Assembly (NCBI RefSeq): GCF_016900375.1
Contig: NZ_JACJKB010000008.1
Location: forward strand, 1-64,000
Source of the DNA: Collinsella tanakaei
GTDB taxonomy: Bacteria > Actinomycetota > Coriobacteriia > Coriobacteriales > Coriobacteriaceae
Reading direction: 5' to 3'
Length of the DNA stretch: 64,000 nt
Of the stretch, positions 24,906 to 41,061 are shown piece after piece. The first letter of the stretch is position 1; the number at the start of each line of letters is the position of its first letter. Position numbers and translations under genes: made by a program. Below the pieces are notes generated by a model. That model did not search any database, was not told the origin of the DNA, and saw only the letters and a program-made list of their open reading frames with translations.

Positions 24906-24912
24906 ATACATG

Positions 24913-24956
24913 CCGGGGCCCGCGTGGGAATCGTCCTCCACGCGGGCCCCGGTTTT
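24913..24956. terminator. Bidirectional terminator between convergent units
   Basis: CCGGGGCCCGCGTGG pairs perfectly with CCACGCGGGCCCCGG over a ten-base loop and is followed by TTTT on the + strand. It separates the + strand sugar genes from the - strand DUF2304/glycosyltransferase pair. Confidence 0.85.
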
Positions 24957-25006
24957 CCAGCGGGTAGCCTTCACGGGCTGAGCGCCGGTCAATCTGCGCG
25001 CAGGCG

Positions 25007-25372: not shown

Positions 25373-25382
25373 GTGCGGGCAC

Positions 25383-26063
25383 CTACCTTAGCCACTGGAA
25401 CAGAAGGATGGACAGGCACGTGCGGCCCATGTAGCTCACGATATGCGGCAGGTCTAAGTAGCTCGTGCCGCCCTGGCGCTCCTGCATCTTGGCGGGGATC
25501 TCGACGATCGTCTTGTGCTTGCGGGCCATGAGCGCCACGGTGTCGGGCTCGGGCGCGATGTCGAAATCCTTGGTGAAGTGCTCGATCATGTTTCTGTTGA
25601 ACAGGCGCATGCCGCTCGTGGGGTCGGTGATCGTGGTGCCGGTCGTGAGTTTGATGAGCGCCGTGATGAGTCGCTGGCCCACGCCGCGCGCGCCGGTGGG
25701 CTTCGTGCCGTCGAGGAAGCGCGAGGCGATCACGATGTCGGCGTCGTGCTCCTGCATCGCCGCGGCGAGCTTGGGGATGTATGAGGGCAGGTGCTGCCCG
25801 TCGGCATCGAACTGGACCACCGCGTCGTAGCCGTTGCGGTAGGCGTACTTCATGCCGCAGCGGAACGCCGAGGTGAGGCGCGTGTTGATGGGCAGCGACA
25901 CGTAGCTGAAGCCGTGCGCACGGCACAGGTCGGCCGTCGCGTCCTTCGAGCCGTCGTTGACGACGAGGTAATCGATATCGGGACATTCGCGGCGAAGCCA
26001 ATCGACCGTGTCGACGATGCATTCTTGCTCGTTGTAGGCTGGGATGACCGCCAGGATCTTCAT
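25383..26063 (-). CDS. Glycosyltransferase family 2, polyprenyl-phosphate hexose synthase type
   Basis: 226 residues of the DPM1/UPP-glycosyltransferase type: ILAVIPAYNEQECIVDTV, LVVNDGSKDAT, the metal motif QFDADGQH and TDPTSGMRLFNR. It probably moves a hexose from a nucleotide to undecaprenyl phosphate on the cytoplasmic face; the DUF2304 protein downstream would help to hold or flip the product. The start is the ATG at 26063, with the ribosome site AGAAAG upstream on the - strand. It diverges from rfbC, sharing a 187-bp regulatory space. Confidence 0.87.
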   Translation of the reverse strand: MKILAVIPAYNEQECIVDTVDWLRRECPDIDYLVVNDGSKDATADLCRAHGFSYVSLPINTRLTSAFRCGMKYAYRNGYDAVVQFDADGQHLPSYIPKLAAAMQEHDADIVIASRFLDGTKPTGARGVGQRLITALIKLTTGTTITDPTSGMRLFNRNMIEHFTKDFDIAPEPDTVALMARKHKTIVEIPAKMQERQGGTSYLDLPHIVSYMGRTCLSILLFQWLR

Positions 26064-26250
26064 CGTGAGGGTGCTTTCTTTTGTGGGCTTACCGTCGTGA
26101 GCTGGTCACGGCCAAAATGGTACCACATGCGTACGACACTGCCGCAGGTGCGAAGGCGCGCACCACACCGTGCATATCTTTTGGAGGGTACGGGCGCTGG
26201 CGCGGCCGGCGCGTATACTGTCATAGGTACATTCGAGGTGGAGGGACCCT

Positions 26251-26838
26251 ATGGCAGAGTCTGTGAAGTCAGGTAATTTCACGTTCATCCCGACGAGCAT
26301 CGAGGGGGTCGTCCTGGTGGACTGCACGTCCTATGGCGACCAGCGCGGCTCGTTCATGGAGACGTACAAGCGCTCCGATTTCGTCGCGGGCGGCATCGAC
26401 ACGACGTTCGTGCAGGACAACCAGTCCATGAGCACGAAGGGCGTCCTGCGTGGCCTCCACTTCCAGATCAACCATCCCCAGGCAAAGCTCGTGCGCGTCA
26501 TCTCGGGCGAGGTATTCGACGTCTGCGTCGACCTGCGTCCGGGCAGCCCCACGCTTGGTGCCTGGGAGGGCGCCCTTCTCACGGGCGAGAACCATCGCCA
26601 GCTGTACATCCCGCACGGCTTCGCGCACGGGTTCTTCGTGCTGAGCGACACCGCGACCTTCGCCTACAAGTGCGACGACGAGTACCATCCCAACGACGAG
26701 GGCGGCCTCATGTGGGACGACCCCGAGATCGGCATCGACTGGCCGATCCCCGAGGGCATCACCCCCGTGCTCTCCGACAAGGACCGCCGCCATCCGACCT
26801 TCGCCGTCTGGTGCGAGGCCAACGGGGTGGAGCGATGA
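26251..26838 (+). CDS. rfbC: dTDP-4-dehydrorhamnose 3,5-epimerase
   Basis: 195 residues. The cupin core has the catalytic histidine in GVLRGLHFQ, and VRVISGEVFDVCVDLRPGSPT plus LYIPHGFAHGFFVLSD are conserved in RmlC. It completes the dTDP-rhamnose pathway together with rfbA, B and D at 20-23 kb. GGAGGG precedes the ATG, and TATACT at 26214-26219 is a likely -10 box. The gene overlaps the next glycosyltransferase by four bases (ATGA). Confidence 0.95.
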   Translation: MAESVKSGNFTFIPTSIEGVVLVDCTSYGDQRGSFMETYKRSDFVAGGIDTTFVQDNQSMSTKGVLRGLHFQINHPQAKLVRVISGEVFDVCVDLRPGSPTLGAWEGALLTGENHRQLYIPHGFAHGFFVLSDTATFAYKCDDEYHPNDEGGLMWDDPEIGIDWPIPEGITPVLSDKDRRHPTFAVWCEANGVER

Positions 26839-27836
26839 AGATCGTCGAGAACACCGAGCTGCTCTCCGCCGAGCCGGTCGTCAGCATCCTGTGCATCACC
26901 TTCAACCAGATCGACTACATCGCCGACGCCCTCGACAGCTTCCTTGCCCAGGACATCGACGTGCCGGTCGAGATCCTGGTGAACGACGACTGCTCGACCG
27001 ACGGCACAACCGACGTGCTGCTGGACTACCAGCGTCGCCGTCCGGACGTGTTCCGCATCGTCACCCATGAGGAGAACCAGTACTCCCTCGGCTTCAGCCC
27101 CATGGGGCAGTTCCTCGTGCCGCTCGCGCGCGGCCGCTTCATCGCCATGTGCGAGGGCGACGATTACTGGACCGATCCCACCAAGCTCTCCCGTCAGCTC
27201 AAGGTGATGCAGGAGCGCCCGGAGATCGCCGCCTGCGTGCACGCCAACGACAACGTGCAGGCGGCCACGAAGCACCGCATCTCGACCGTGCGCTATGCCC
27301 AGGGCGACTGCATGATCTCCCTTGCCGACATCACGTCGCGCTCGCAGTGCTATGCGACGAACAGCCTGTTCGTGCGCGCCGAGGCCATGCGCGCCTACCA
27401 CGAGTCGTCGTTTTTTACCCTGCGCGCCGATGGCGACCACAAGATGCTCGTGCACTTCGGCCTCATCGGCGGCGGCATCTACTACCTCGACCGCGTGATG
27501 AGCGCCTACCGCGTGCTCTCCAAGAACTCCGTCAACCGCTCCATGCTGCTGGGCGGTGACACCTCGGGCGTGGCCAAGAAGAAGCACGACAACCGCGTCG
27601 AGCTGCTCCAGCTTGCCGATAACGAGACGAACGGAGCCTATCACGACGCCATCGAGCGCGGTATCGACTGCATCCACTACGCCTACTACCGCGACATCCG
27701 CGACCTGCGCACCCTGCGCCGCCGCTGGCCCGAGCGCCTGAAGGCGGAGGGCTTCCTCGCGAAGGTCGACCTGCACCTGTACACCTATGCGCGCCCGCTC
27801 CACAAGCTCGCGCTCAAGGTGTACTGCAAGCTCTAG
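26835..27836 (+). CDS. Glycosyltransferase, family 2
   Basis: 333 residues from the ATG at 26835, overlapping the end of rfbC. VSILCITFNQIDYIADALDSFLAQ and VEILVNDDCSTDGT mark the GT-A domain, and CEGDDYWTD supplies the DXD-type metal site. The C-terminal third is helical and basic. It is coupled to the rhamnose epimerase, so a rhamnosyltransferase is possible, but the donor is not determined. It is followed by the flippase after a 63-bp gap. Confidence 0.88.
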   Translation: MKIVENTELLSAEPVVSILCITFNQIDYIADALDSFLAQDIDVPVEILVNDDCSTDGTTDVLLDYQRRRPDVFRIVTHEENQYSLGFSPMGQFLVPLARGRFIAMCEGDDYWTDPTKLSRQLKVMQERPEIAACVHANDNVQAATKHRISTVRYAQGDCMISLADITSRSQCYATNSLFVRAEAMRAYHESSFFTLRADGDHKMLVHFGLIGGGIYYLDRVMSAYRVLSKNSVNRSMLLGGDTSGVAKKKHDNRVELLQLADNETNGAYHDAIERGIDCIHYAYYRDIRDLRTLRRRWPERLKAEGFLAKVDLHLYTYARPLHKLALKVYCKL

Positions 27837-27899
27837 CGCACGGCGGGAGCCGCAGGGTGCCATCGCCCGCGCGGCTGACGCTCGGAAAGGTTGTTGATT

Positions 27900-29372
27900 T
27901 TGCCTACGGGTAGCTTGAAGGAAAGAACGATCGGCTCGCTGTTCTGGAAGCTGTTCGAGCAGGGCGGTGCGGCGGCCATCACGCTCATCGTCCAGATCGT
28001 CATGGCGCGCATCCTCGCGCCGGACGAGTTCGGCATGCTCGCCATCATGCTGGTGTTCGTGAACATCGGCAACGTGGTCGTGCAGTCGGGCCTGAACACG
28101 GCGGTCATCCAGGCGCCCGACATCACCGAGCGCGACTACTCGACCGTCTTCTGGATGTGCTTCGTCGTCTCGCTCGTGCTGTATGCGTTCGTGTTCTTCC
28201 TGGCACCGGTCGTGGCGGCGTTCTACGCCATGCCCGCGATCGTGGCGCCCCTGCGCGTGCTCGTGCTCGTGCTGATCGTGAACTCCTACAACTCCATCCA
28301 GGAGGCGATCGTCGCCCGCCAGCTCGAGTTCTTCAAGACATTTCGCTCCACGGTGACGGCCGCCGTGGTGTCGGGCAGCATCGGCATCGGCGTGGCGCTC
28401 GCCGGCGGCGGCATCTGGGCGCTCGTGGTCCAGCAGCTGCTCTACCAGCTGTGCAAGTGCATCGTCCTGGCGGCTCAGGTTCCCTGGAAACCGCATCTGG
28501 TGTTCGAGCGCGCGCGTGCGGTCCGCCTGTTTCGCTTCGGTTGGAAGCTTCTGGCCTCGGGCCTGCTCGACCAGATGTACCAGAGCCTGTCCGACCTGAT
28601 CATCGGCAAGCTCTTCAACAGCACGCAGCTGGGGTACGTCTCGCAGGGCAAGAAGTACCCGCAGGCCCTCGGCACCGTGCTCGACGGCGCGGTGCAGCCC
28701 GTCATGCTGTCGGCCGTGGCCCATGTGCAGGACGACCGCGCCCGGGTTCGCCGCCTCGTGCGCCGCGCGCTCAAGACGAGCACGTTTTTCATCATGCCCG
28801 CCATGACGCTCTTCGCGGTGGCCGCCGAGCCGCTCGTGACGCTGCTGCTGGGCGAGAAATGGGTCGCCTGCGTGCCCTACCTGCAGGTCTACTGCTTCGT
28901 GTACGGGCTGCTTCCCATCCACAGCACGAACCTCCAGGCGTTCAACGGCGTCGGCCGCAGCGATCTGTTTTTGAAGCTCGAGGTAGTCAAGAAGATCATC
29001 GGCCTGGTCATCCTCTGCTTTGCCGCTTTCGTGCTGCACGACCTCACCGCCATCGTGTTCGGCTATGCCGTGAGCGGAGTCATCTGCACCTTCGTGAACG
29101 CCTCGCCGAGCAAGCGCGTGCTCGGCTATGCCTATAGCGAGCAGCTGCGCGACATCGCGCCCGCGTTCGCGCTGTCGATCGTCTGCGGCCTCGCCGTGTA
29201 CCCCATCTCGTGGCTGGGGCTGCATGAGATCCCGACGATCGCGCTCATGTGCGTCGCCATGATGGTGCTGTACCTGGTGCTCGCCAAGCTCCTTCGGGTG
29301 GAGGAGCTGACGTATCTGCTCAACACGCTCAAAGGCATGCGCGGCGGCCGTTCGGGCGCCGATGCGCGCTGA
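27900..29372 (+). CDS. Polysaccharide flippase (Wzx / MATE-like, lipopolysaccharide biosynthesis family)
   Basis: 490 residues if translation begins at the TTG at 27900, which fits the GGAAAGG site at 27884-27890; TTG codons at 27891 and 27894 are alternatives. About fourteen hydrophobic helices, beginning with SLKERTIGSLFWKLFEQGG, typical of MOP-superfamily exporters of lipid-linked oligosaccharides (MviM/Wzx type). It would flip the repeat unit built by the surrounding glycosyltransferases across the cytoplasmic membrane. No Wzy-like polymerase is obvious, although the 702-residue membrane protein at 31955 could have a related job. Confidence 0.87.
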   Translation: MPTGSLKERTIGSLFWKLFEQGGAAAITLIVQIVMARILAPDEFGMLAIMLVFVNIGNVVVQSGLNTAVIQAPDITERDYSTVFWMCFVVSLVLYAFVFFLAPVVAAFYAMPAIVAPLRVLVLVLIVNSYNSIQEAIVARQLEFFKTFRSTVTAAVVSGSIGIGVALAGGGIWALVVQQLLYQLCKCIVLAAQVPWKPHLVFERARAVRLFRFGWKLLASGLLDQMYQSLSDLIIGKLFNSTQLGYVSQGKKYPQALGTVLDGAVQPVMLSAVAHVQDDRARVRRLVRRALKTSTFFIMPAMTLFAVAAEPLVTLLLGEKWVACVPYLQVYCFVYGLLPIHSTNLQAFNGVGRSDLFLKLEVVKKIIGLVILCFAAFVLHDLTAIVFGYAVSGVICTFVNASPSKRVLGYAYSEQLRDIAPAFALSIVCGLAVYPISWLGLHEIPTIALMCVAMMVLYLVLAKLLRVEELTYLLNTLKGMRGGRSGADAR

Positions 29373-29412
29373 GGCGTATGATAGGGGCCAACCCGCAACG
29401 ACAGGAGACGTT

Positions 29413-30522
29413 ATGCCTGACGAGAGAATTCTGGTAACCCGTTCCTCGATGCCGACACTCGAGGAGTATGTGAACGAGATCGCCCCGCTGTGGGATTCGC
29501 ACTTCCTGACGAACATGGGCGAGAAGCATCAGCAGCTCGAGCGCGACCTTCTGAGCTATCTCGACGTCGACAACATCACGCTGTTCGTGAACGGCCACAA
29601 CGCCCTCGAGTGCGTGCTCGAGGCCATGGACCTGCACGGCAAGGTCATCACGACGCCCTTCACCTTCGCCTCGACCACGCACGCCATCGTGCGCAAGGGC
29701 CTCACGCCGGTGTTCGCCGACATCAGGCCCGATAACTACACGCTCGACCCCGCCAAGATCGAGGAGCTGATCGACGGCGAGACGACGGCCATCCTGCCGG
29801 TGCATGTGTACGGCAACCTGTGCGACGTCGAGGCGATCCAGGACATCGCCGCGCGCCATGGCCTCAAGGTGATCTACGACGCGGCGCATGCCTTCGGCGT
29901 GCGCAAGAACGGCGTCAGCTCGGCGATGTTCGGCGATGCGTCGATGTTCTCGTTCCACGCCACCAAGGTTTTCAACACCATCGAGGGCGGCGCGGTGTGC
30001 TACCGCGACCACGACCTCAAGGAGAAGCTCGACCACTGGAAGAACTTCGGCATCTCGGGACTCGAGGAGGTCGAGTACGCCGGCGGCAACGCGAAGATGA
30101 ACGAGTTCTGCGCGGCGATGGGCGTGTGCAACCTGCGCCATCTGCCCGACGAGATCGCCAAGCGCAAGCTCGTGGCCGAGCGCTACTGGGACAACCTCGA
30201 GGACGTGCCCGGCATCGTGGTGCACCGTCCGGCGGAGGGCATCGAGTCCAATTACTGCTATCTGCCCGTGGTGTTCGAGGACGAGTTCGGCGCCACCCGC
30301 GACGACGTGTACGCCGCCCTGCGCGCCCAGGATATCTTCGCGCGCAAGTACTTCTATCCGCTCACGACGCAGTTCGACTGCTACCGCGGTCGCTTCGATT
30401 CGTACGAGACGCCCATCGCGGCCCATGTGTCGACCCACGTGCTCACGTTGCCGATGTTCGCCGACCTGACGATGGAGCAGGTTGACCGCATCTGCGCCAT
30501 CGTCCGTTCCTGCGCCCGCTAA
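29413..30522 (+). CDS. DegT/DnrJ/EryC1/StrS-family sugar aminotransferase
   Basis: 369 residues. PLP-fold protein with the sequence VIYDAAHAFGVRKNG for cofactor ring contact and the lysine in SFHATKVFNTIEGG, the usual internal aldimine site. NGHNALECVLEAM and TPFTFASTTHAIVRKGLTPVFADI are typical. The family transfers amino groups to keto sugars bound to nucleotides, here presumably for an aminodeoxyhexose in the polysaccharide. AGGAGA precedes the ATG. Three bases after the stop a 73-bp-arm palindrome begins. Confidence 0.9.
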   Translation: MPDERILVTRSSMPTLEEYVNEIAPLWDSHFLTNMGEKHQQLERDLLSYLDVDNITLFVNGHNALECVLEAMDLHGKVITTPFTFASTTHAIVRKGLTPVFADIRPDNYTLDPAKIEELIDGETTAILPVHVYGNLCDVEAIQDIAARHGLKVIYDAAHAFGVRKNGVSSAMFGDASMFSFHATKVFNTIEGGAVCYRDHDLKEKLDHWKNFGISGLEEVEYAGGNAKMNEFCAAMGVCNLRHLPDEIAKRKLVAERYWDNLEDVPGIVVHRPAEGIESNYCYLPVVFEDEFGATRDDVYAALRAQDIFARKYFYPLTTQFDCYRGRFDSYETPIAAHVSTHVLTLPMFADLTMEQVDRICAIVRSCAR

Positions 30523-30525
30523 CAG

Positions 30526-30684
30526 CTTGGCCTCTCTGGGGACGTAGCCGGAAGGCGCCAGGGCGTGAAAAGGGGACAGGGGTTATTTCACATGGGACGG
30601 CGATTGCGCCTGTCCCATGTGAAATAACCCCTGTCCCCTTTTCACGCCCTGGCGCCTTCCGGCTACGTCCCCAGAGAGGCCAAG
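30526..30684. repeat. Perfect 73-bp-arm palindrome (R3 outer, R2-like inner)
   Basis: Arms 30526-30598 and 30612-30684 match without error around a 13-bp centre. The outer part is the R3 unit (GGCCTCTCTGGGGACGTAGC then CGGAAGGCGCCA). The inner part has GAAAAGGGGACAGGGGTTAT followed by TTCACATGGGAC, related to R2. The structure suggests one repeat inserted within another. Confidence 0.9.
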
Positions 30685-30697
30685 GCCCGCGGATACC

Positions 30698-30729
30698 AAA
30701 AAGCGCCCCGGTGCTGCCGGGGCGCTTTT
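30698..30729 (-). terminator. Terminator of the NlpC/P60 gene
   Basis: AAGCGCCCC pairs with GGGGCGCTT. On the - strand the stem is followed by TTTTT-like bases, and it lies 20 bp after the stop codon of the gene at 30750. Confidence 0.8.
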
Positions 30730-30749
30730 GCGTTGCGTTGCGGTGGCGG

Positions 30750-31796
30750 TTAGTTCGCGTGGATGGGGGAGCCGCCGCCGAGGAAGCCTTGGTCGCCGTC
30801 GAGCGGGCTGATGCAGACGCCGACCTTGACGCCATCGACCCAGTGGCCGGAGGAGTGGATGATCTCGCGGACACCGGTCTCCTCGTTCACACCGAGGTAG
30901 ATGGCGGCGTGGCGCAGGTTATCCCAGCTGGGGTTGGTGCCGTAGCCGAAGAACACGATATCGCCCGGCTCGAGCTCGTCCTTGCTGTACTTGAGCAGAC
31001 CGCGCTCGCGCAGCCACTTGGACTGGGCGTTGAAGGAGCTGTCGGCCATGGACTCCCAGAGCTGGTAGCCCGCCTCGTTGTACACCCAGTAGGTGAAGCC
31101 GTCGCAGCTGAACTCGTTGGGGCCGAGGCCGGCGTGCTTATAGGGGCAGCCGAGCTTGCTCTCGGCGATGGAGATGATACGGGCCTCTTCGGCGGTCACG
31201 TCGGCGGGAAGATCGACAACGATTTCGCCGGTAACCTTGTCGAACTCGATCTCGACGCCGTTGACGATGTGCTTGCCGAGGAGCATCCAGCCGAAGGTCA
31301 TGTCGTAGTAGACGGTCTTGGTGCCGCCTTCGCCATCGGGGACGACCTGGAAGCCCTTCAGCATCTCGCCGGTGATGGTGTCGAAGTACCAGCGGTGCTC
31401 CTTGTTGTCGATGGGAGAGACGCGGACGTCCTCGCCGTAGACCATGTGGCCGTTCTTGTCGTAGCGGACCCACTTGAGCTGGTTGGGGATGAGCACGTCC
31501 TTATCGAAGGCCAGGGTGCCATCAATGTCGAACCAGTACCAGGCGTTGGTCTCGGGGTCGTAGACCTCCTTGTACTTCGCCTGGACACCGTAGTCGTACC
31601 AGTACATCTCGCCGTCGTCGGCGCGCGTCCAGCCGTTGTAGCCGGGGTGGTTCGCAACCTCGCTATCGGCGATCACGTTTTCCGCGCCGCAGTCAACAGC
31701 CAAGGCAGGGGCGGGCGCGGCCATGAGGGCGCACGCGATTCCGGCGCCCGCGAGAAGCGGGGCGAAGGTCAGCTTGGCGTTGCGGTTGTTCTTCAT
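30750..31796 (-). CDS. Secreted NlpC/P60 peptidoglycan hydrolase with cell-wall-binding repeats
   Basis: 348 residues from the ATG at 31796, which has GGAGG just upstream; the longer reading frame has no support. Signal peptide: basic MKNNRNAK, hydrophobic AGAGIACALMAAPAPALA. Residues 40-210 hold aromatic, Gly/Asp-rich repeats (WYWFDIDGTLAFDKD, WVRYDKNGHMVYGED, RWYFDTITGEMLKG) of the choline/glucan-binding type, related to those at 35037. The C-terminal papain-like domain has C231 (SCDGFTYW) and H296 (RHAAIYLG). It would cut stem peptides of peptidoglycan outside the cell. It is encoded alone, opposite in direction to the sugar genes. Confidence 0.9.
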   Translation of the reverse strand: MKNNRNAKLTFAPLLAGAGIACALMAAPAPALAVDCGAENVIADSEVANHPGYNGWTRADDGEMYWYDYGVQAKYKEVYDPETNAWYWFDIDGTLAFDKDVLIPNQLKWVRYDKNGHMVYGEDVRVSPIDNKEHRWYFDTITGEMLKGFQVVPDGEGGTKTVYYDMTFGWMLLGKHIVNGVEIEFDKVTGEIVVDLPADVTAEEARIISIAESKLGCPYKHAGLGPNEFSCDGFTYWVYNEAGYQLWESMADSSFNAQSKWLRERGLLKYSKDELEPGDIVFFGYGTNPSWDNLRHAAIYLGVNEETGVREIIHSSGHWVDGVKVGVCISPLDGDQGFLGGGSPIHAN

Positions 31797-31954
31797 GCAG
31801 CCTCCAAATGGTTCGGGCTTCATTCCTAATCGTCCATGATACCCGTCTGTGACCTTGATGACCCCCTTCACGGCGGGGAACCTCCGCGTCCTCACGATTT
31901 CTGTGCAGGTTATAATCGGGCGTACCATCTGTTTCATCTATTCGGGAAGGGCTT

Positions 31955-34063
31955 ATGCTCCACCTCGCTATCTCCTGCCTTGCCGCCATCGTCATCCTCA
32001 TGCTTCCGGGCTGGCTCGCCGTGCGCGCCATCGGCACGCGCCCCGTCGTCGCGACGATGCTTGCCCCCGCCGTCTCGATCGCGCTGTATGGCGTGCTTGG
32101 AACGGCATATGCCCTCGTGGGTATCCCGAGCGGCCCGCTCACGCTCTTCGCCGCCCCAACCGCGCTGCTTGCCGTGGTCGCGCTGGTCTGCCTTCGCGTC
32201 CGCGGCGCCCGCCGCGAAGATGCGCCGGCGGGCGCCCATGCGCGTGCGGTGCCCGGGCGCGCCATCCCCGTCGCAAAGCGCGCCTTCACGGTTGCCGGGC
32301 GCGACATCTCCTGGTTGACGCTGGCCGCCATCGTCGCGGTGGCTGTCGGAATCGTCACCTGCTGCACGGTGTTTTTGCCGAGTCTGGGCGATCCCGAGGC
32401 CTTCTCGCAGAACTACGACAACGCCTTCCACCTGAGCCGCGTGCGCACCTTCATGGACACCGGGGTCTTCAGCTCGCTTGCGGGCGGCTTCTATCCTTCC
32501 GCCTGGCACTGCCTCGTCGCCCTCATCGGCACCTCGACCGCGGCGTCGGTGCCCCTGGCGGTCAACGCCTCGCTCGTTACCATCGAGGGCGTCGCCTACC
32601 CGCTGAGCATGGTGGCCCTGCTCGCCGCCCTGTTCCCCGACCGGCCGAAGCGCGTGGTCCTCGGTGCGCTCGCGTGCACGGCCATCGCGTACTTCCCCTG
32701 GCGCATCATGCTGTTCGGACCGCTCTATCCCAACGTGCTGTCGTTCTCGCTCATGCCGGCCGTCGTCGGCCTATTCGTCGTCATGGTGCAGCGCGAGACC
32801 GAGCGCGCGGCCCGTATCCGCGCCGCCGTGCTGTTCGTGGTAGGCGGCGTGTCGCTGGCTATCGCGCAGCCCAACGGCGTGTTCTCGGCGGGCGTGTTCC
32901 TGATCCCGTTTTGCCTGTACGCCGCCGGCACGTATGCGCGCGCGGCGTGGCGGGGGAGGGCTGGCGTGCTCGTGGCAATCGCGGCGGCGCTCGCGGTCGG
33001 GGCTGCCATTGCCGCCATCTGGGTCGGCCTGCTCCACGTGCCGTTCTTCGACGCTATCGTCACCTATCCGCGCGACACGCCGCTCAACGTGGAGGACGCC
33101 TGCAGATGGGCCCTTCACTTCTCGTATGTCATTCAGCGCCCCCAGTACATGGCGGGCTGGCTCGTCGTGTTCGGCAGCCTCTTCCTGCTGCTCGAGCGCC
33201 GGCGCCGCTGGATCGTCTTCGGCTATGGCCTGACCGCCCTGCTGTTCGTCATCTCCATCAGCGTGGGCGGGCGCCTGCGCGAGGTGTTCACCGGTTTTTG
33301 GTACAACGACTACCATCGCATGGCAGCTGCGGCGAGCGTGTTCGCGATCGTTCCGCTCGCGGTTGCCCTCGACTACGTGGTCTCGGCGATCTTCTTCGTG
33401 TTCCGCAAGATCTCGCACGATGCCGCGGGTCGCATCACGCGTCCCGCCGGCGTCGTTGCCGGCGTGCTCATCTGCGCCGTGCTCACCTTCATGTATGTCC
33501 TGAACAGCAACCCGGTGTCGTTTCTGCCCGATGAACGTAGGTCGTACGCCTACGACGCCGTGATGTACGAGATGCGCGACATGTACGGCATCGGCGAGAA
33601 CGGCGAGACCGGTCCGCTCGAGCAGGAGGAGCGCGATTTTCTTGATCGCGTCGTCGACGAGGTGGGCACCGAGGCGATGATCGTGAACCAGCCCTATGAC
33701 GGCAGCGTGTTCGGCTATGCGATCGACGATTTGAACCTTCTGTTCAAGCAGTACAACCCGATGGACGACGAGGCGTCGACGACCGTGCGGCTGCGCGGCC
33801 TGGCCGTTGCGGGAAGCCCCTCGGTCCAGGAGGCCTTCGAGGAGCTCGACGCGGCCTACGTGCTGCAGCTCGATCAGGGCAGGGGACCGGCCGACATGAA
33901 CGAGGACGGCTCGTTCTACCTGAGCGGCTACGGCAAGGAAGGCTGGTGCGGCATCAACCGCATCGAGGACGGCACGCCGGGCTTTACCGTCGTGCTCTCA
34001 GAGGGCGACATGCGCTTGTACCGGGTGGAGGGCGTCGACGTGGCGCCGGAGGATGCTGCCTGA
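31955..34063 (+). CDS. Large polytopic membrane protein, DUF6541-like
   Basis: 702 residues. About fourteen hydrophobic helices occupy roughly residues 1-520, followed by a 180-residue acidic extracellular domain without helices (from about FLPDERRSYAYDAVMYEMRD). Residues with PWRIMLFGPLYPNVLSF and GRLREVFTGFWYNDYHRMAA resemble actinobacterial DUF6541 proteins, which look like GT-C glycosyltransferases or oligosaccharide polymerases. GGGAAGGG precedes the ATG. Placed inside the polysaccharide locus, it could polymerise or attach the repeat unit (inference). It ends in the palindromic terminator at 34134. Confidence 0.75.
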   Translation: MLHLAISCLAAIVILMLPGWLAVRAIGTRPVVATMLAPAVSIALYGVLGTAYALVGIPSGPLTLFAAPTALLAVVALVCLRVRGARREDAPAGAHARAVPGRAIPVAKRAFTVAGRDISWLTLAAIVAVAVGIVTCCTVFLPSLGDPEAFSQNYDNAFHLSRVRTFMDTGVFSSLAGGFYPSAWHCLVALIGTSTAASVPLAVNASLVTIEGVAYPLSMVALLAALFPDRPKRVVLGALACTAIAYFPWRIMLFGPLYPNVLSFSLMPAVVGLFVVMVQRETERAARIRAAVLFVVGGVSLAIAQPNGVFSAGVFLIPFCLYAAGTYARAAWRGRAGVLVAIAAALAVGAAIAAIWVGLLHVPFFDAIVTYPRDTPLNVEDACRWALHFSYVIQRPQYMAGWLVVFGSLFLLLERRRRWIVFGYGLTALLFVISISVGGRLREVFTGFWYNDYHRMAAAASVFAIVPLAVALDYVVSAIFFVFRKISHDAAGRITRPAGVVAGVLICAVLTFMYVLNSNPVSFLPDERRSYAYDAVMYEMRDMYGIGENGETGPLEQEERDFLDRVVDEVGTEAMIVNQPYDGSVFGYAIDDLNLLFKQYNPMDDEASTTVRLRGLAVAGSPSVQEAFEELDAAYVLQLDQGRGPADMNEDGSFYLSGYGKEGWCGINRIEDGTPGFTVVLSEGDMRLYRVEGVDVAPEDAA

Positions 34064-34133
34064 TCGGACAGCGGTCATCCGCTTCAGGGGCGGCCGTCCG
34101 GTACCAAAATGCCGCGCGAGCGGCAACGTTCAC

Positions 34134-34176
34134 AAAGCGGGCCCCGCATCGAGCGCTCGATGCGGGGCCCGCTTTT
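34134..34176. terminator. Perfect bidirectional terminator
   Basis: GCGGGCCCCGCATCGAGC is followed immediately by its exact complement, flanked by AAA and TTTT. It serves the convergent membrane-protein and DJ-1 genes. Confidence 0.9.
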
Positions 34177-34201
34177 GCAAGATGGATTCAGTCGCCTGCG
34201 C

Positions 34202-34780
34202 CTACACCTCGAAGGTGGCGCCCATGAGCTTGGCGAACTCGCGGCAGATCGCGGTGTCGCCCGGCCAGGCGGGAGCGGTCACGAGGTTGCGGTCGACGAC
34301 GGCCTGATCGACATCGACGGGCACATAGGTGCCGCCCGCAAGGGTGATGTCGGGGCCGACGGCGGGATAGGCCGTGGCCTTGTAGCCCTCGAGGACGCCG
34401 GCGGCGGCGAGCACCTGCGGGCCGTGGCAGATGGCGGCGACGGGCTTGCCGTCGGCGAAGAACTCGCGGGTGATTTCGAGGACGCGCTCATTCAGGCGGA
34501 TGTACTCGGGTGCACGACCGCCGGTGATGAATAGGCCCACGTAATCGGCCGTGTCGACGGCGTCGAAATCGGCGGTGAGGGCGAAGTTGTGGCCGCGCAG
34601 CTCGGTGTAAGTCTGCTCGCCGAGGAAGTCGTGGACGGCGGTGGCAACCGTGTCGCCGGCCTTCTTGTCGGGGCAGACGGCGTCGACCTGGTAGCCGAGC
34701 ATGGACAGCGCCTGGAAGGGCACCATGGTCTCGTAATCCTCGGTGAAATCACCGCAGAGCATAAGAACCTTCTTGGTCAT
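34202..34780 (-). CDS. DJ-1/PfpI family protein
   Basis: 192 residues of the class-I glutamine-amidotransferase-like fold. The nucleophilic elbow is [10 protein letters not shown] with C118. An acidic residue that polarises this cysteine ([12 protein letters not shown]... region) and [15 protein letters not shown] are conserved. Members act as deglycases, glyoxalases, chaperones or stress proteins; the exact activity is not predictable. Start: ATG at 34780 with AAAGGAG-like bases upstream on the - strand. It has no apparent link to the neighbouring envelope genes. Confidence 0.87.
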
Positions 34781-35036
34781 TTGCGACTCCTTTCTGTGGG
34801 CGCACGAGTGCCGCTGATGTGCCTACGTTCAACCATACCCCTCATGCGCCAGGTGGTATGCGTCACACCTCGCTTGCGGTTGCCCTGCATAGGCGAACGG
34901 CGGCGAACGGCGTTTGGCATGAGAGGTGTGTGGACTCCCGATGGCGGGTTCCAATAAAAACGGCTGTGTTAGAATGTGGTACGTTCGCGTCCGGATTCAA
35001 TCCGGACGTTTCGTATCTGCAGAAAGGTTTTGAGCT

Positions 35037-36902
35037 ATGGCAGATTGCTCCACATCCTGGTGGCGCCGCAATGCCGTCAAGCTTGCGCTCGCCTCCACAA
35101 TGTCCGTTGGTCTCGCCTTCGGCGCGACCGCCGCGTACGCTACCGAGCCGACCGTTCCCGCCGAGACCCCCGCTGTGACCCTTCTCGAGCCTGCAGTCAT
35201 CTCCGAGACCGAGCAGGTCGAGGCGATCGAGACCGCCACGGTCGAGGAGACCGTCGTCGACGACGTCGCGACCGTGCCCGCCACTGACACGACCGATGTC
35301 GTGACCGGCGGCGCTGCCCTCGAGGGCTCCGTCATCACGACCGAGACCACCGAGGATGTCGACGACACCAAGCAGCCTGCGACCGACGTCGAGGATCAGA
35401 CCGGCGACGCTGCGACCGATGGCGACATCACGACCGCGACCGATCCCGACGAGGGCGAGGAGTCCGAGGAGGAGACCAAGCCCGGTACGGGTGAGGAGGA
35501 GTCCGACCCCACGACCGACCCCGACGAGGAGACCAAGCCCGGCGAGGGCGATCAGTCCGAGGAGGAGAAGCCCGGCGAGGGCGAGGGCGACGACGAGGAG
35601 GACCCCGACACCCCCGATATTCCCGATGGCAAGCCCGAGAGCGGCACCGGCTGGGGCTCCGACTCCGCCGGCAACGCGAACTACTATGAGAACGGCAAGC
35701 TCGTCTGGAGCGTCGACAAGAACGGCAACCGCACCTACTACAAGGACGGCGTGGCGACCAACCCCGACTGCGTGTTCTTCAACGACCCGACGACCGGCAA
35801 GCGCTATTGGTACGAGGGCGGCGAGATCGTCGCGAGCCACTCGTTCTACGATCCCGTGACCAACAACTGGTACTGGGCCGATGCCGACGGCACCATCGCC
35901 CACGGCAAGGACGCCTTCATCCCGAAGGACAGCTCCGTCGACATGGATCGCTTCCTGAACGATGCCGACTACCGCAACGCCAACGGCAAGTGGGTCCGCT
36001 TTGACAACAACTACGTCATGGTCAAGGGCGAGAACTACTACAACGATCACTGGTATTACTTCGATACCACGACCAGCGAGATGGTGAAGCACTTCGCCTA
36101 CGTGACGCCTGCCAACGGCGGCCAGGGCAAGTGGGTCTTCTACGACGAGATCACCGGCCAGATGCTCTACGGCGAGCAGTACAAGACCTCCAACAAGACC
36201 GACAACACGTATCACTGGTACTACCTCAACGACTACACCGGCGCCGTTACCTACGGCTGGTGGACCATTCCCGCCTCCGGCAAGGTCGTCTTCTACGACC
36301 GCGTTCTCGGCTGGATGAAGTACGGTTGGGTCGACACCGGCGACAAGGTGGTCGGCAACAACACCAACTGGCACTTCTTCAACCGCTACACCGGCGAGTG
36401 CATGACCCAGGACGACCGCGGCAACGCCGCCCACGACAGCTGGCTGCGCATGTACGACGGCACGAGCAAGACCGACAAGTACATCTGCGTCGACAAGGAC
36501 AACTTCCGCACGATCATCTTCCAGCGTGTCGGCAACGACTGGGATGTTCTGAAGGTCTTCAAGTGCGGTCTCGGCCGTCCCGATGCCAACATGGGCCGCG
36601 GCACGCAGGAAGGCGTCTGGTACCTGGGCGAGAACGTCCCGTCCTACCCGGTGCCCGACGATCTGTGGCGCGCCAACTACGACCGCATGGAGAACGACAC
36701 CACCTCGGGCGTCCGCTGGAGGATCCACTACATCTGGGACCAGGGCTTCCACGGCACCGTGTACACGAGCTCCATCCCCGCTGAGCAGCAGCTCGAGAAG
36801 TACATCTCCGACGGCTGCGTGCGCCTGCTGGAGGTGGACGCCAAGTGGCTGTGGGACAACTGCGCCAACGGCACGAAGGTCTACATCTGGCGTCGCTACT
36901 AG
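35037..36902 (+). CDS. Secreted L,D-transpeptidase with cell-wall-binding repeats
   Basis: 621 residues. Signal peptide with WWRRNAVK and hydrophobic LALASTMSVGLAFGATAAYA (cleavage near residue 37). Residues 40-200 are a Glu/Asp/Thr-rich spacer with repeated EEE, KPGEG and DPTTDPDEE units. Residues 205-470 hold about eight aromatic repeats (YYENGKLVW, RYWYEGGEIVAS, NWYWADADGTIAHGKD, YDRVLGWMKYGW). The C-terminal YkuD domain has H572 (GFHGT) and C594 in SDGCVRLLEVD. It would form 3-3 cross-links or anchor proteins in peptidoglycan outside the cell. GAAAGG precedes the ATG, and TAGAAT upstream may be a -10 element. Confidence 0.92.
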   Translation: MADCSTSWWRRNAVKLALASTMSVGLAFGATAAYATEPTVPAETPAVTLLEPAVISETEQVEAIETATVEETVVDDVATVPATDTTDVVTGGAALEGSVITTETTEDVDDTKQPATDVEDQTGDAATDGDITTATDPDEGEESEEETKPGTGEEESDPTTDPDEETKPGEGDQSEEEKPGEGEGDDEEDPDTPDIPDGKPESGTGWGSDSAGNANYYENGKLVWSVDKNGNRTYYKDGVATNPDCVFFNDPTTGKRYWYEGGEIVASHSFYDPVTNNWYWADADGTIAHGKDAFIPKDSSVDMDRFLNDADYRNANGKWVRFDNNYVMVKGENYYNDHWYYFDTTTSEMVKHFAYVTPANGGQGKWVFYDEITGQMLYGEQYKTSNKTDNTYHWYYLNDYTGAVTYGWWTIPASGKVVFYDRVLGWMKYGWVDTGDKVVGNNTNWHFFNRYTGECMTQDDRGNAAHDSWLRMYDGTSKTDKYICVDKDNFRTIIFQRVGNDWDVLKVFKCGLGRPDANMGRGTQEGVWYLGENVPSYPVPDDLWRANYDRMENDTTSGVRWRIHYIWDQGFHGTVYTSSIPAEQQLEKYISDGCVRLLEVDAKWLWDNCANGTKVYIWRRY

Positions 36903-36925
36903 GCTCGCCGACAACCTCTGCAACG

Positions 36926-36955
36926 AAGACCCCGCTCCCCGCGGGGTCTTTTTGT
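36926..36955 (+). terminator. Terminator of the L,D-transpeptidase gene
   Basis: AGACCCCGC pairs with GCGGGGTCT over TCCCC and runs into TTTTT. The last T is already the first base of the R5 repeat that follows. Confidence 0.9.
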
Positions 36956-37187
36956 CCACTTTCAGGACGGAGATGTTTTCGGACACCCGGCGGCGCGGGC
37001 CCGCTGGCCCCCTGGGGACGGAGGCGGCTGGCCTCTCTGGGGACGTAGCCGGGAGGCGCCACGCCGTGGACTCCGGCTGACGTCTTCACCGCGGTGGCCG
37101 GCGTGGCGCCTCCCGGCTACGTCCCCAGAGAGGCCAGCCGCCCCGTCCGCCGGGTGTCCGAAAACATCTCCGTCCTGAAAGTGGACA
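36953..37187. repeat. Composite element: R5 - R3 hairpin - inverted R5
   Basis: The outer ends are R5 copies in opposite orientation (36953-36990 and 37147-37187, core TTTCAGGACGGAGATGTTTT). Inside, from about 37025 to 37139, is an R3 hairpin (GGCCTCTCTGGGGACGTAGC with CGGGAGGCGCCACGCC arms). This nested unit fills most of the 377-bp gap before 37280. Confidence 0.85.
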
Positions 37188-37198
37188 AAGGGGAAAGC

Positions 37199-37231
37199 AT
37201 GACAGTGGGACCCGTCCTAATTGTCATACCC
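37199..37231. repeat. R1 repeat (reverse orientation)
   Basis: ATGACAGTGGGACCCGTCCT followed by AATTGTCAT, a variant of the reverse R1 core. It lies directly upstream of the ATP-grasp gene, before its GGGAGGG ribosome site. Confidence 0.7.
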
Positions 37232-37279
37232 TGTGTCATAATGGGGCCTGTCGGTAACCGTTTTGTGGGAGGGTCTGTT

Positions 37280-38431
37280 ATGGCCGTTACAGTGGAGAAC
37301 AATCTCGATGCGATGCTCAAGCGTGGCTTCTCGAAGAAGATGGCCACGCTCTATCTGAATAACCTTGAGCGCGAGAAGCGCGACGGTTTCTTCGATGCCG
37401 ATTACCTCGCATGGGCGCACGAGCACGGCTTCTACGGCGAGTCCGCCACGGCCTACAACCTGACCGAGGACACTATCGACAACTACCTGTCCGATTACGA
37501 CTACTGCCGCGTGTGGCCGCTGAACGACTGGCAGCGCATCTGGATCAACGACAAGCTCACCTTCGCCTACATGTTCTGGGGCACCGAGTTCCAGAAGTAC
37601 CTGCCCGAGTCGTACTACTACTGCGCGCAGGACCGCCTCGTGCCGCTGCTGGATAGCAATATGGATCCAACGGTCGACGGCTTCCTCGCGCTGCTGCGCG
37701 AGAAGGGGGAGTACGCCGCCAAGCCGTGCAACGGCGAGTGGGCGCGCGGCTTCCACAAGCTGTCCTACATCGACGGCTCCTATCTCATCGACAACAAGCC
37801 TTCCGACGAGGCCTCCGTGCGCACCTTCGTCGCCGAGAAGAAGAACCTGATCTACACCGAGTTCTTCCATCCGAGCGCCGAGATGGCCCGCATCGACCCG
37901 CTCATCCACACCCTGCGCATCCTCATGGTCAACCGCGATGGCGCGAATCCCTATCCGGCGTCGGCCTACCTGCGCTTCGCCATGGGCACGGGTGGCGACG
38001 ACTCCAAGGCCAACTACCACCGTCCCGAGTCGCGCGACATCAGCTCCTACAACGTGGGCTTCGACATGGAGACCGGCCACTTCGGTGGCGGCCACATCAT
38101 CTACGGCTACAAGCGCATCGACACCGACCTGCACCCCGACAGCGGCGTGGAGGCCGCGGGCACCATCGAGGAGTGGCCCGAGATCAAGAAGATGCTCGCC
38201 GAGATGTCGCTGCGCATCGGCCCGCTCGAGTACCTGGGCTACGACGTGGGCATCACCGACAAGGGCGTGAAGCTCATGGAGATCAACTCCCACTCCGGCT
38301 GCAAGTACCTGCAGGTCTTCCGTCCGTATCGCGCCGACGCCTTCATGAACGAGTTCTTTTCCGACAAGCTCGCGAAGATCGACGCTCTGGACGACGAGGC
38401 CATCGCGCGCCGCAACGCCTGGGCACGCTAG
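37280..38431 (+). CDS. Sugar-transfer-associated ATP-grasp protein
   Basis: 383 residues from the ATG at 37280 (GGGAGGG nine bases upstream). The central and C-terminal parts fit the ATPgrasp_ST family (glutamate-ligase-like): YAAKPCNGEWARGFHKL as the nucleotide-lysine region, IHTLRILMVNRDG, and KLMEINSHSGCKYLQVFRPY as the metal/phosphate end, with the E-x-N motif expected for Mg-ATP. The first 90 residues are rich in aromatic and charged residues, without a membrane helix. Such genes occur in capsule and teichoic-acid loci and probably form an amide or ester between an amino acid or carboxylate and a sugar; the substrate is unknown. A second ATP-grasp gene follows 19 bp on. Confidence 0.8.
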   Translation: MAVTVENNLDAMLKRGFSKKMATLYLNNLEREKRDGFFDADYLAWAHEHGFYGESATAYNLTEDTIDNYLSDYDYCRVWPLNDWQRIWINDKLTFAYMFWGTEFQKYLPESYYYCAQDRLVPLLDSNMDPTVDGFLALLREKGEYAAKPCNGEWARGFHKLSYIDGSYLIDNKPSDEASVRTFVAEKKNLIYTEFFHPSAEMARIDPLIHTLRILMVNRDGANPYPASAYLRFAMGTGGDDSKANYHRPESRDISSYNVGFDMETGHFGGGHIIYGYKRIDTDLHPDSGVEAAGTIEEWPEIKKMLAEMSLRIGPLEYLGYDVGITDKGVKLMEINSHSGCKYLQVFRPYRADAFMNEFFSDKLAKIDALDDEAIARRNAWAR

Positions 38432-38450
38432 GCGCGGGTGATTCGCCGAC

Positions 38451-39674
38451 ATGGAACGTGAACAACGCTCGATCCTGCTTTTGGGAGGATCGCGCCAGCA
38501 GGTCGTGGCGATCGAGTGCGCCAAGCGCCTCGGGTACCACACGGTGCTCTGCGACTATCTGCCCGACAACCCCGGTCAGTACGCGGCGGACGTCTTCTAC
38601 CAGGAGAGCACGACCGACCGCGCGCGCATGCTCGAGATCGCGCGGGCCGAGGGCGTGTCCGGCGTGCTCGCCTACGCCTCCGACCCCGCCGCGCTGACGG
38701 CGGCCTATGTGGCCGAGGAGCTCGGGCTTCCCACGAACCCGCTCGCTTCGGTGGAGACCCTGAGCACGAAGCACCTGTTCCGCCGCTATCTGTCCGAGCA
38801 CGGGTTCCCCGCGCCCGCCGCCCATCCCGTCACGGTGGATGCGGACCCGAGCGAGGTCGCGCAGCTGGCGGCGACCATGAGGCAGCCGGTCGTCATCAAG
38901 CCGACCGATTCGAGCGGCTCCAAGGGCGTGAGCGTGCTCGACGGACCCGATGCCGAGGAGGTGCGCCGCGCCCTTGAGGCTGCGGCCGCGTACTCGCGCA
39001 ACGGCGTGCTGCTGCTCGAGGAGTACATCCGCGCGGGGTTCCCGCGCGTCATCGGCGGCGACGTGTTCGTCGTCGACGGCGAGGTCCGCTTCTGGGGCCT
39101 CATGTCGTGTTTGCGCGACGAGGAGCTCGGCGGCCTTGTGCCCATCGGCGAGCGCTGCCCCTCGGGGCTGTCCGCCGCCCAGGAGCGTGCCGTCCGCGAG
39201 CAGATTCAAGCGCTCGTGACCTCGCTCGGCATGCGCTTCGGCGAGTTCAACGTCGAGATCATCGTCGGCGAGGACGACACCCCGTACTTCCTCGAGCTCG
39301 GGGCGCGCGCCGGCGGCAACATGATCCCCGTCCAGCTTTCGGATATCTCCGGCGTGGACCTCATCGAGGCGAACGTGCGCTACGCCATGGGCGATTCCTC
39401 GCTTGACGTCGCCTTCGACGGCTCCGATGCCGCCTTTGCCACCTATGTGCTGCACACCGACCGCGAAGGTATCCTGCGCGGCGTCGAGACGGATCCCGAC
39501 ATCGCGCCGTGCATCTACCGCTCGGTGATGTACGTGGAGCCCGGGCAGCCGGTCGAGCGCTTCGACGGCGCCGGCAAGGCGCTCGGAATCTTCTTCCTGC
39601 GCTTTGACGATGTTGCGCATATGGAGGGCATGCTCGACGGCATCACCCGGCGTATACGCGCGGTGGTATCCTAG
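38451..39674 (+). CDS. ATP-grasp ligase, carbamoyl-phosphate-synthase-like
   Basis: 407 residues. N-terminal Rossmann-like pre-ATP-grasp domain (SILLLGGSRQQVVAIECAKRLG), then the ATP-grasp core: VVIKPTDSSGSKGVSVLD (glycine-rich lid with lysine), LLLEEYIRAG and FNVEIIVGEDDTPYFLELGARAGGNMIP (metal-binding E and N). Homologues ligate carboxylates to amines through an acyl-phosphate, including peptide ligases and sugar-modifying enzymes. No strong ribosome site precedes the ATG, which fits translational coupling to the preceding ATP-grasp gene. Together with the GT2 gene at 39749 it forms a possible three-gene decoration module. Confidence 0.85.
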   Translation: MEREQRSILLLGGSRQQVVAIECAKRLGYHTVLCDYLPDNPGQYAADVFYQESTTDRARMLEIARAEGVSGVLAYASDPAALTAAYVAEELGLPTNPLASVETLSTKHLFRRYLSEHGFPAPAAHPVTVDADPSEVAQLAATMRQPVVIKPTDSSGSKGVSVLDGPDAEEVRRALEAAAAYSRNGVLLLEEYIRAGFPRVIGGDVFVVDGEVRFWGLMSCLRDEELGGLVPIGERCPSGLSAAQERAVREQIQALVTSLGMRFGEFNVEIIVGEDDTPYFLELGARAGGNMIPVQLSDISGVDLIEANVRYAMGDSSLDVAFDGSDAAFATYVLHTDREGILRGVETDPDIAPCIYRSVMYVEPGQPVERFDGAGKALGIFFLRFDDVAHMEGMLDGITRRIRAVVS

Positions 39675-39748
39675 AGACCTATATGAACGATTCGCGCCCG
39701 GCAGCCGTCGGGCGCCTGCTTGCTTTTGACCCCTGAGGAGGACCCTCG

Positions 39749-40885
39749 ATGCATCGAGATGCCCAATCGCTCGTGTCCGTCATCATCCCCATCTACAACG
39801 TCGAGAAGTTTCTCGACCAGTGCCTGGAGAGCGTGCTCGGGCAGACCTACCGCAACATCGAGGTCCTGTGCATCAACGACGGCAGCACCGATTCGTCGCC
39901 CGAGATCATCCGCCGCTTTGCCGCCAAGGACCCGCGCGTCCGCATGATCGACAAGGAGAACGGCGGCTACGGCATGGCCTGCAACCGCGGCCTGTCCGAG
40001 GCGCGCGGCGAGTGGATCTCGATCATCGAGCCCGATGACTGGATCGATGCCGGCATGTACGGCGATATGCTGACCTTCGCCGCGAGCTTCGAGGAGACGA
40101 TCGACATCGTCAAGTGCCCGTGGACCGATATCGTCGACTGGAATAACCCCAAGAAGCAGAACGCCGTGCGCTGCACGCTCGACGGCCTGTACCCGACGTC
40201 GACGGCGCCCGCGCCGCTGACCGCCATGCCGCGCCTCATCGAGATGCACCCTTCCATCTGGTCGGCCATCTACCGCCGCGCCTTCCTGGAAAAGAAGGGC
40301 ATCAAGTTCATCGAGTACCCCGGCTCCGGTTGGGCTGACAACCCCTTCCTCGTCGAGGCCTTTTGCCAGACCGACGCCATCGTGTACTTCGACAAGCCGT
40401 ACTACAACTATCGCTGCGACCTGCTCGGCTCGACGTGGAACCACAAGACGGAGGACCTCGTCGCGCGCCCGTTCGACCGCTGGATGACCATGACGAAGAT
40501 CATGCAGCGCATCGGCGTCACCGACCGCGGGGTGTGGGAGGCGCACTACATGCGCGGCTTCAACTACATCCGCGGCGCCATCACCGATGACGGTTTCAAG
40601 CACCCGGTCGTCCAGAAGAAGATCCGCGAGGTCTTCGCGATGATGGACGACGACCTCGTGGTCTCGATGGTGAGCCTCAACAAGGGCCGCAAGAAGTTCT
40701 ACTTCGCGATGCAGGACAAGCCCTGCCCCAAGGTGAAGTTCACCGGCGAGCGCATGAGCTACCTCGTCGACGAGGGCAAGCACATGCTGCACCTCTACGG
40801 CGTGTACGGCCTGCTGCTGCGCGTGTTCCGCCGTATCCGCCGCATCGGCTTCACCGAGGTCGACGTCGCCCAGAAGCGCTACTGA
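39749..40885 (+). CDS. Glycosyltransferase, family 2
   Basis: 378 residues. VSVIIPIYNVEKFLDQCLESVLGQTYRNIEVLCINDGSTDSS and EPDDWIDAGMY (DXD-type) are textbook GT2 motifs. The C-terminal 150 residues contain WADNPFLVEAF and helices common to capsule glycosyltransferases. GAGGAGG precedes the ATG. It follows the two ATP-grasp genes, with TATCCT near 39666 a possible promoter element. The TGA stop at 40883-40885 is the beginning of an R2 repeat. Confidence 0.9.
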   Translation: MHRDAQSLVSVIIPIYNVEKFLDQCLESVLGQTYRNIEVLCINDGSTDSSPEIIRRFAAKDPRVRMIDKENGGYGMACNRGLSEARGEWISIIEPDDWIDAGMYGDMLTFAASFEETIDIVKCPWTDIVDWNNPKKQNAVRCTLDGLYPTSTAPAPLTAMPRLIEMHPSIWSAIYRRAFLEKKGIKFIEYPGSGWADNPFLVEAFCQTDAIVYFDKPYYNYRCDLLGSTWNHKTEDLVARPFDRWMTMTKIMQRIGVTDRGVWEAHYMRGFNYIRGAITDDGFKHPVVQKKIREVFAMMDDDLVVSMVSLNKGRKKFYFAMQDKPCPKVKFTGERMSYLVDEGKHMLHLYGVYGLLLRVFRRIRRIGFTEVDVAQKRY

Positions 40886-41008
40886 AAGTTCGGGGACAGG
40901 TCCCAAACTTTCACCAGGACGGGTTCAGCCGTCATAAACGCGGACGGCCGGGGTGGAAGCGCCCCGGCCGTCCGTTTTTGTGACAGCTGAACCCGTCCTA
41001 ATTGTCAT
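40883..41008. repeat. R2 repeat plus facing R1-type arms around a terminator
   Basis: R2 (40883-40913) is TGAAAGTT, GGGGACAGGTCCC and AACTTTCA. Its first three bases are the stop codon of the glycosyltransferase. Then AGGACGGGTTCAGC (40915-) and its complement GCTGAACCCGTCCT (40986-) enclose the terminator at 40941. The right part ends in ATTGTCAT. Confidence 0.8.
40941..40979 (+). terminator. Terminator before valS
   Basis: CGGACGGCCGGGG pairs perfectly with CCCCGGCCGTCCG over an eight-base loop and is followed by TTTTT. Confidence 0.92.
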
Positions 41009-41061
41009 CAAAGATGCGTGGTATCCTCAACGTTTGTGTATCGCGATAGAAGGGAACTTCC

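Follow-up and report, generated by a model that had tools for sequence, protein, structure and literature searches.

Paired ATP-grasp ligases of a Collinsella tanakaei polysaccharide island as candidate enzymes for the N-acylation of a 4-amino sugar

What is joined to what when two adjacent ATP-grasp ligases and a glycosyltransferase close a polysaccharide locus? The question is raised by a 64,000-nucleotide stretch of Collinsella tanakaei DNA (positions 1 to 64,000 of contig NZ_JACJKB010000008.1, assembly GCF_016900375.1; the window, in what follows), in which three co-directional genes lie in a row on the + strand at 37280-40885. The first, A1 (37280..38431, 383 residues), is placed by Pfam and alignment in the ATPgrasp_ST family (PF14397); the second, A2 (38451..39674, 407 residues), is by Pfam and structure model a CPSase-like, L-amino-acid-ligase-like ATP-grasp ligase; the third (39749..40885, 378 residues) encodes a GT2 glycosyltransferase by its Pfam match to Glycos_transf_2 (E 4.3e-33; 115.1 bits against a cut-off of 23.3). 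Gaps of 19 bp and 74 bp separate them, and GGGAGGG precedes the ATG of A1 at 37280, as GGAGG does the start of the GT2 gene. An initial annotation, made from the sequence alone, had described this trio at the end of a polysaccharide locus and had proposed that it attaches amino acids or other carboxylates to the envelope polysaccharide. The description holds: the reading frames are intact, their Pfam matches exceed the cut-offs, and the trio terminates a 21.2-kb island before valS. Chance antisense open reading frames were rejected as the origin of the three readings. In G039, the nearest genome bearing the trio, the full-length products are 94% (A1), 88% (A2) and 87% (GT2) identical to those of the window.

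We suggest that A1 and A2 are, with fair probability, ATP-dependent ligases for the N-acylation of a 4-amino-4,6-dideoxyhexose; amino acids are the probable acyl groups, and there may be two steps. It is the co-occurrence and adjacency of these genes with sugar 4-aminotransferases that lead us to an amino sugar as the substrate, N-acylated most likely while it is still a nucleotide sugar, and an amino acid is the likeliest donor because A2 resembles L-amino acid ligases. We infer from these patterns that there is an amide bond, which sugar and acyl donor it joins, that the reaction takes place on the nucleotide sugar, and in which order the ligases act. As for the attachment of a carboxylate to the envelope polysaccharide, the general idea is favored by the conservation of the pair, by its membership of the island and by the fold of A2, which lies near that of L-amino acid ligases (and of PurK and PurT as well); the finished polysaccharide as the target is not, the aminotransferase context favoring an amino sugar instead.

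The evidence comes from a class sample of 396 Coriobacteriia genomes, which are drafts. Cut-offs were single values of our own choosing, namely E 1e-120 for the aminotransferase and E 1e-60 for A2 and for RmlD; genes of the relatives were called with a home-made program, and adjacency was additionally taken from tblastn positions. Strong A1, defined as a best match above 270 bits, is present in 28 of the 396 genomes; another 11 of the 39 A1 genomes had weak matches, below 160 bits, and were dropped before counting. A2 is present in 22 genomes at E<=1e-60 and in 16 at E 1e-100. The initial annotation had made its case depend on the two ATP-grasp genes being found together in relatives, and so they are: strong A1 and A2 share 13 genomes and lie within 4 kb of each other in all 13. 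In 10 of these (11 loci, as G322 has two) A2 directly follows A1 on the same strand, with a spacing of less than 100 bp or a 1-bp overlap. The exceptions are G212, where the genes are divergent and about 200 bp apart, G215, with one gene between them, and G296, where they are 3.7 kb apart. Some loci are cut by contig edges, L072 starting just before A1 and L092 stopping just after it, and L101 and L104 fall outside the A1 cluster.

The conserved unit is the A1-A2 pair and not the trio, because among the fetched loci the GT2 gene adjoins the pair only in the window and in G039 (L071). The trio, whose conservation had been named as a check on the proposal, was consequently rejected as a conserved unit, and the GT2 relatives in other A1 loci (L082, L085, L088, L091 and L093) are not adjacent. 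Nor is A1 always paired: A2 at E<=1e-60 is missing from 15 of the 28 strong-A1 genomes. In eight of these 15 the fetched stretch contains a different ATP-grasp gene of the CPSase-like kind (clusters c16, c25, c26, c32 and c46, with one member of each scanned), and in the other seven no such gene was recognised in that stretch, so that A1 can probably stand alone. Of the 14 loci with A2, three have a GNAT acetyltransferase gene, which in L078 and L079 is downstream of A1-A2 and in L087 close by.

A DesI-like DegT sugar 4-aminotransferase, the presumed source of the amine, is encoded in the window at 29413..30522 on the + strand (its Pfam DegT match was obtained on a longer reading from 29362). 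The best solved relative is 2po3 (E 3.9e-57), which we take to be DesI (the structure file itself says 4-dehydrase), followed by perosamine synthetases. This aminotransferase is found in 55 of the 396 genomes, and none of the 28 genomes with strong A1 or of the 22 with A2 lacks it. At the level of genera, all 15 with strong A1 are among the 31 of 153 that have the aminotransferase (probability 1.4e-12), and within the genus of the window the corresponding figure is 0.003 for 43 genomes, of which 2 have strong A1 and 3 the aminotransferase, or 0.004 for 40, since the class sample need not contain all 43; the relatedness of the genomes inflates all of these probabilities. RmlD, a general sugar-pathway gene that served as a control, is found in 91 genomes, just 28 of which have the aminotransferase, and among these 91 the aminotransferase accompanies A1 in 16 of 16 cases and A2 in 14 of 14.

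Adjacency adds to this. Nine genomes have A2 without strong A1, and in seven of them (G054, G176, G378, G385, G090, G364 and G178) A2 lies directly downstream of the aminotransferase, as it likewise does in G029, where it is slightly under the A2 cut-off. A second, WecE-like aminotransferase precedes 6 of 19 A2-cluster copies; the best solved match of the sole member tested is the dTDP-4-amino-4,6-dideoxygalactose transaminase 4piw (E 1.8e-171). Because A2-type ligases are adjacent to two kinds of aminotransferase, and at our cut-offs always share the genome with the DesI-like one, they most likely acylate the amine that sugar 4-aminotransferases make. When 29 A2-family proteins were placed in a tree together with 2 outgroup rows (31 proteins in all), they grouped by upstream gene, with 7 changes of that gene against a mean of 16.8 when labels were shuffled and none of 200 shuffles as low. 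This fits a specialisation of A2 by upstream gene without proving a single origin, because the group with A1 upstream requires two changes and the tree leaves several deep forks open. Some loci contain a further gene, cluster c18, for a protein of about 325 residues with a start near REIGGYFELE/REIGGYLELE (L078:8166-9134, L089:10454-11440 and four other loci); in five loci it lies in the opposite direction, between the WecE-like gene with its A2 copy and A1. Two of its members gave no hit in Pfam at E 0.001, and for one member there was no meaningful solved relative.

With 52.9 bits (E 3.9e-14), A1 exceeds the curated gathering cut-off of ATPgrasp_ST in Pfam, which is 31.4, and is thereby a member; the match covers residues 135-373 of a 410-residue reading that starts 27 codons before our ATG. 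The family's name is not a tested function, and in the open-licence literature we found no paper using that name as a phrase and know of no member whose activity has been measured. Residues K92, K148, E194, R213, R232, D322, E334 and N336 are invariant in 29 aligned A1 sequences, and in 19 A2 sequences the same is true of K107, K150, a DSSGSKG loop, E190, E191, E269, E282 and R286. These are presumably the nucleotide- and magnesium-binding residues of ATP-grasp enzymes, and the conservation of the predicted catalytic residues in both proteins fits that set. When A1 was sought beyond the class with a profile, 4 of 236 genomes of the phylum matched: besides the window's own genome and G039, these were two distant genomes with scores of 98 and 75 bits. 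Several long proteins (L099, L100, L102, L103, L106 and L109) were considered as domain fusions of A1-like ligases. Readings of about 740-1050 residues with a C-terminal ATPgrasp_ST domain lie at L106:8955-12104, L109:7815-10787, L099:6836-9625 and L100:7174-9384; among the four scanned with Pfam only L106 had a second match, an N-terminal NTP_transf_3 under the cut-off, a possible sign that ligase and sugar-activating functions are fused there. The long proteins were excluded from use, being about 27-33% identical to A1 and over part of A1 only.

A2 matches CPSase_L_D2 (E 9.2e-9; 35.6 bits against a cut-off of 19.8), with LAL_C2, ATPgrasp_N and ATPgrasp_ST among its sub-threshold Pfam matches. 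Its structure model has a predicted local distance difference test score (pLDDT) of 81.4 and an L-amino-acid-ligase-like fold. It aligns over nearly its full length with 4dim (Z 33.7) and with the L-amino acid ligase 3vot (3vot_B: Z 31.6 over 372 residues, root-mean-square deviation 3.5); RizA follows at Z 28.5, and BacD is among the best matches. The closest solved relative, by profile (E 3e-34) and by fold, is 4dim, a "phosphoribosylglycinamide synthetase" of Anaerococcus prevotii whose name looks like one given by similarity and for which we know of no tested function. BL00235 (3vot), RizA (4wd3) and BacD/YwfE (3vmm), which make free dipeptides, have in common with A2 the fold and the near full-length alignment, and differ from it in sequence, at 13-18% identity.

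The co-occurrence is a correlation across genomes that share ancestry, hence the inflated probabilities mentioned above, and a number of further observations weigh against our proposal. The LAL_C2 match of A2, at 28.7 bits, lies slightly below the cut-off of 29.4, so A2 is not classed as a member of the L-amino acid ligases, and because PurK and PurT chains match the A2 model nearly as well (Z 25-29), its fold is not by itself specific for such ligases. The AlphaFold2 model of A1, built from four sequences, has a mean pLDDT of 42.4, and the A1 profile found in the PDB only two marginal matches, to alpha-L-glutamate ligases (E 0.47 and 0.65). Profile comparison detected no similarity between A1 and A2 (0.1% probability); despite a sub-threshold match of A2 to the ATPgrasp_ST family (25.3 against 31.4 bits), the idea that the two are recent duplicates was accordingly rejected. 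On the side of the aminotransferase, the product is uncertain because TIGR04427 (DesI), still the best NCBIfam match of the window's enzyme, scores 279 bits against an equivalog cut-off of 650. In the window the gene is about 7 kb from A1 and not adjacent to it, and two of the nine genomes with A2 and without strong A1 (G273 and G300) do not have A2 beside the aminotransferase. Furthermore, only 5 of the 11 dropped weak-A1 genomes have the aminotransferase, strong A1 and A2 are both missing from 18 of the 55 genomes with the aminotransferase, and RmlD is absent, at the cut-off used, from 12 of the 28 strong-A1 genomes.

If our proposal is right, RmlA- and RmlB-like enzymes would supply dTDP-4-keto-6-deoxyglucose, which the DesI-like aminotransferase would convert to a dTDP-4-amino-4,6-dideoxyhexose. 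The ligases would next form the acyl phosphate of a carboxylic acid, an amino acid being the likeliest, and couple the acid so activated to the 4-amine of the sugar; the acylated sugar would be consumed by a glycosyltransferase and the repeat unit exported by Wzx. Where A1 holds the upstream place, A2 may act on the product of A1, and the GNAT enzyme of some loci might cap a free amino group, as in the N-acetylglycyl and N-acetylalanyl substituents found in nature. Aminoacylated amino sugars are familiar from polysaccharide chemistry: the substituents reported for 4-amino-4,6-dideoxyglucose include N-acetylglycyl, N-acetyl-D-alanyl and N-[(R)-3-hydroxybutyryl]-L-alanyl (PMC3210612), and two ligases in series would yield a substituent such as the last of these. 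We would go further only tentatively. It is conceivable, if somewhat doubtful, that two ATP-grasp ligases unrelated in sequence work one after the other on the 4-amine, one adding an amino acid and the other capping or extending it; a peptide-like substituent might then be made without ribosome, tRNA or carrier protein, and ligases of the Coriobacteriales placed behind DesI-like and WecE-like aminotransferases might in this way diversify the surface polysaccharide of gut commensals.

Other interpretations of these data deserve consideration. One that we regard as unlikely is that a uronic acid carboxylate of the polysaccharide is amidated with an amine or an amino acid in the manner of Cj1438C. 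For this TupA-like ATP-grasp enzyme, encoded in the capsule locus of Campylobacter jejuni, the role of amidoligase is reported as demonstrated, with glucuronic acid as its substrate (PMC11800379). As described there, Cj1438C is like our pair in being an amide-forming ATP-grasp enzyme in a surface-polysaccharide locus and coupled to a GT2 enzyme, and the GT2 gene that adjoins the ligases in the window has its counterpart in Cj1438, where GT2 and ligase domains are fused. It differs in being a single, TupA-like ligase directed at a glucuronic acid carboxylate, whereas A1 and A2 are two, with no TupA family among the two Pfam matches listed for A1 or the ten listed for A2 at E up to 0.1. The gene that co-occurs with the pair is, moreover, a sugar 4-aminotransferase, and a uronic acid acceptor is unlikely because no UDP-glucose dehydrogenase (PF03721) passes the cut-off in the organism's own draft genome (99.84% complete; one 39-position match lies under the cut-off, at 22.7 against 27 bits); this check covered the UDP-glucose dehydrogenase route, and its control was positive in 13 of 14. 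We likewise give little credence to the idea that A1 and A2 produce a small soluble peptide or dipeptide-like metabolite unattached to sugar: the fold neighbors of A2 that are named dipeptide or L-amino acid ligases (3vot, RizA, BacD) are what one would expect from it, but the genes terminate a polysaccharide island, the copies in relatives stand among polysaccharide genes, and in the 396 genomes strong A1 and A2 were never found without the sugar aminotransferase. Least convincing is a role in making or amidating another part of the envelope, for instance a cross-linking peptide, or an anchor on which the neighboring L,D-transpeptidase acts; this would account for the YkuD protein directly upstream of A1 and for a Mur-ligase-like gene at 45730 and is improbable in that, among the fetched loci, an L,D-transpeptidase adjoins A1 only in the window and L071 (the upstream gene of L072 is hidden by the contig edge), the pair being present in other loci without it and the aminotransferase being the constant partner.

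N-acylation of an amino sugar, the reading that we prefer, has around it an island (19853..41061) that a comparison of genus loci places between clpX and valS. RmlA-, RmlB-, RmlD- and RmlC-like genes lie at 20062-20963, 21083-22087, 22109-23014 and 26251-26838 on the + strand, with Pfam matches to NTP_transferase, GDP_Man_Dehyd, RmlD_sub_bind and dTDP_sugar_isom (the start sites of the first two were chosen by us), and are read as a putative rmlABDC set, the likely source of dTDP-4-keto-6-deoxyglucose. Glycosyltransferase genes of the GT2 type are interspersed among them within 20062..26838, one of them, at 25383-26063, being on the - strand. A Wzx-like flippase (27915..29372, +; Polysacc_synt_3, E 5.4e-96) follows, a relative of which is directly divergent from A1 in 8 of 29 A1 loci, and then come the aminotransferase and a DUF6541 protein of 702 residues (31955..34063, +; Pfam E 3.8e-145). 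The YkuD L,D-transpeptidase (35037..36902, +; E 2.1e-14) carries choline-binding-like repeats, the Choline_bind_3 match (26.7 bits) being slightly below its cut-off of 27. Two gene calls run against the island's direction, at 30750-31796 (-) and 34202-34780 (-); by eye, one starts like a secreted protein and one is DJ-1/PfpI-like.

The same region was looked for in 42 genomes of the genus, from which 30 valS loci were fetched. In 26 of these 30, clpX lies within 1.5 kb of valS; the four exceptions are the window, G039 (with island genes divided over two contigs, L187 and L071), L189 (clpX about 5.6 kb off) and one locus at a contig edge. From this majority we infer that the island was gained here rather than lost elsewhere. 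G029 has a ValS start identical to that of the window, yet shows the short clpX-valS form (L183); this genome, which lacks the clpX-valS island, has its own aminotransferase-A2 locus elsewhere (L105, 7646-12365) and a more distant second A2-like gene. Between the L,D-transpeptidase gene and A1 there is a 239-bp imperfect inverted repeat (36951-37189), stretches related to which give 130 matches in the organism's draft genome, both strands and fragments counted; we regard it as a family like the repetitive extragenic palindromes or miniature inverted-repeat transposable elements. The GT2 gene is followed by another imperfect inverted repeat, of 38 bp (40916-40999), ending in a CCCGTCCTAATTGTCAT-like motif, which by eye also occurs just before A1 (~37210), so that similar repeats flank the trio. 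Downstream of valS, at 43972-44046, the 35-bp arms of a further inverted repeat match perfectly around a loop of 5 nt.

Capsule loci are already known to contain ATP-grasp amidoligases, and the Pfam name of A1's family in itself suggests a link to sugar transfer. As far as the open-licence papers listed reach, what is new is the pairing of two unrelated ATP-grasp ligases, and likewise their link to sugar 4-aminotransferases and their spread through the loci of the Coriobacteriales; none of those papers was found to tie the amide bond of an aminoacylated amino sugar to ATP-grasp ligases. We know of no structures for the surface polysaccharides of gut Coriobacteriia. If the proposal is true, it would provide two tractable enzymes for producing acylated sugar nucleotides, together with a genomic rule, an ATP-grasp gene behind a sugar 4-aminotransferase, by which acyl decorations could be predicted from sequence, and which could be applied first to the gut Coriobacteriia.

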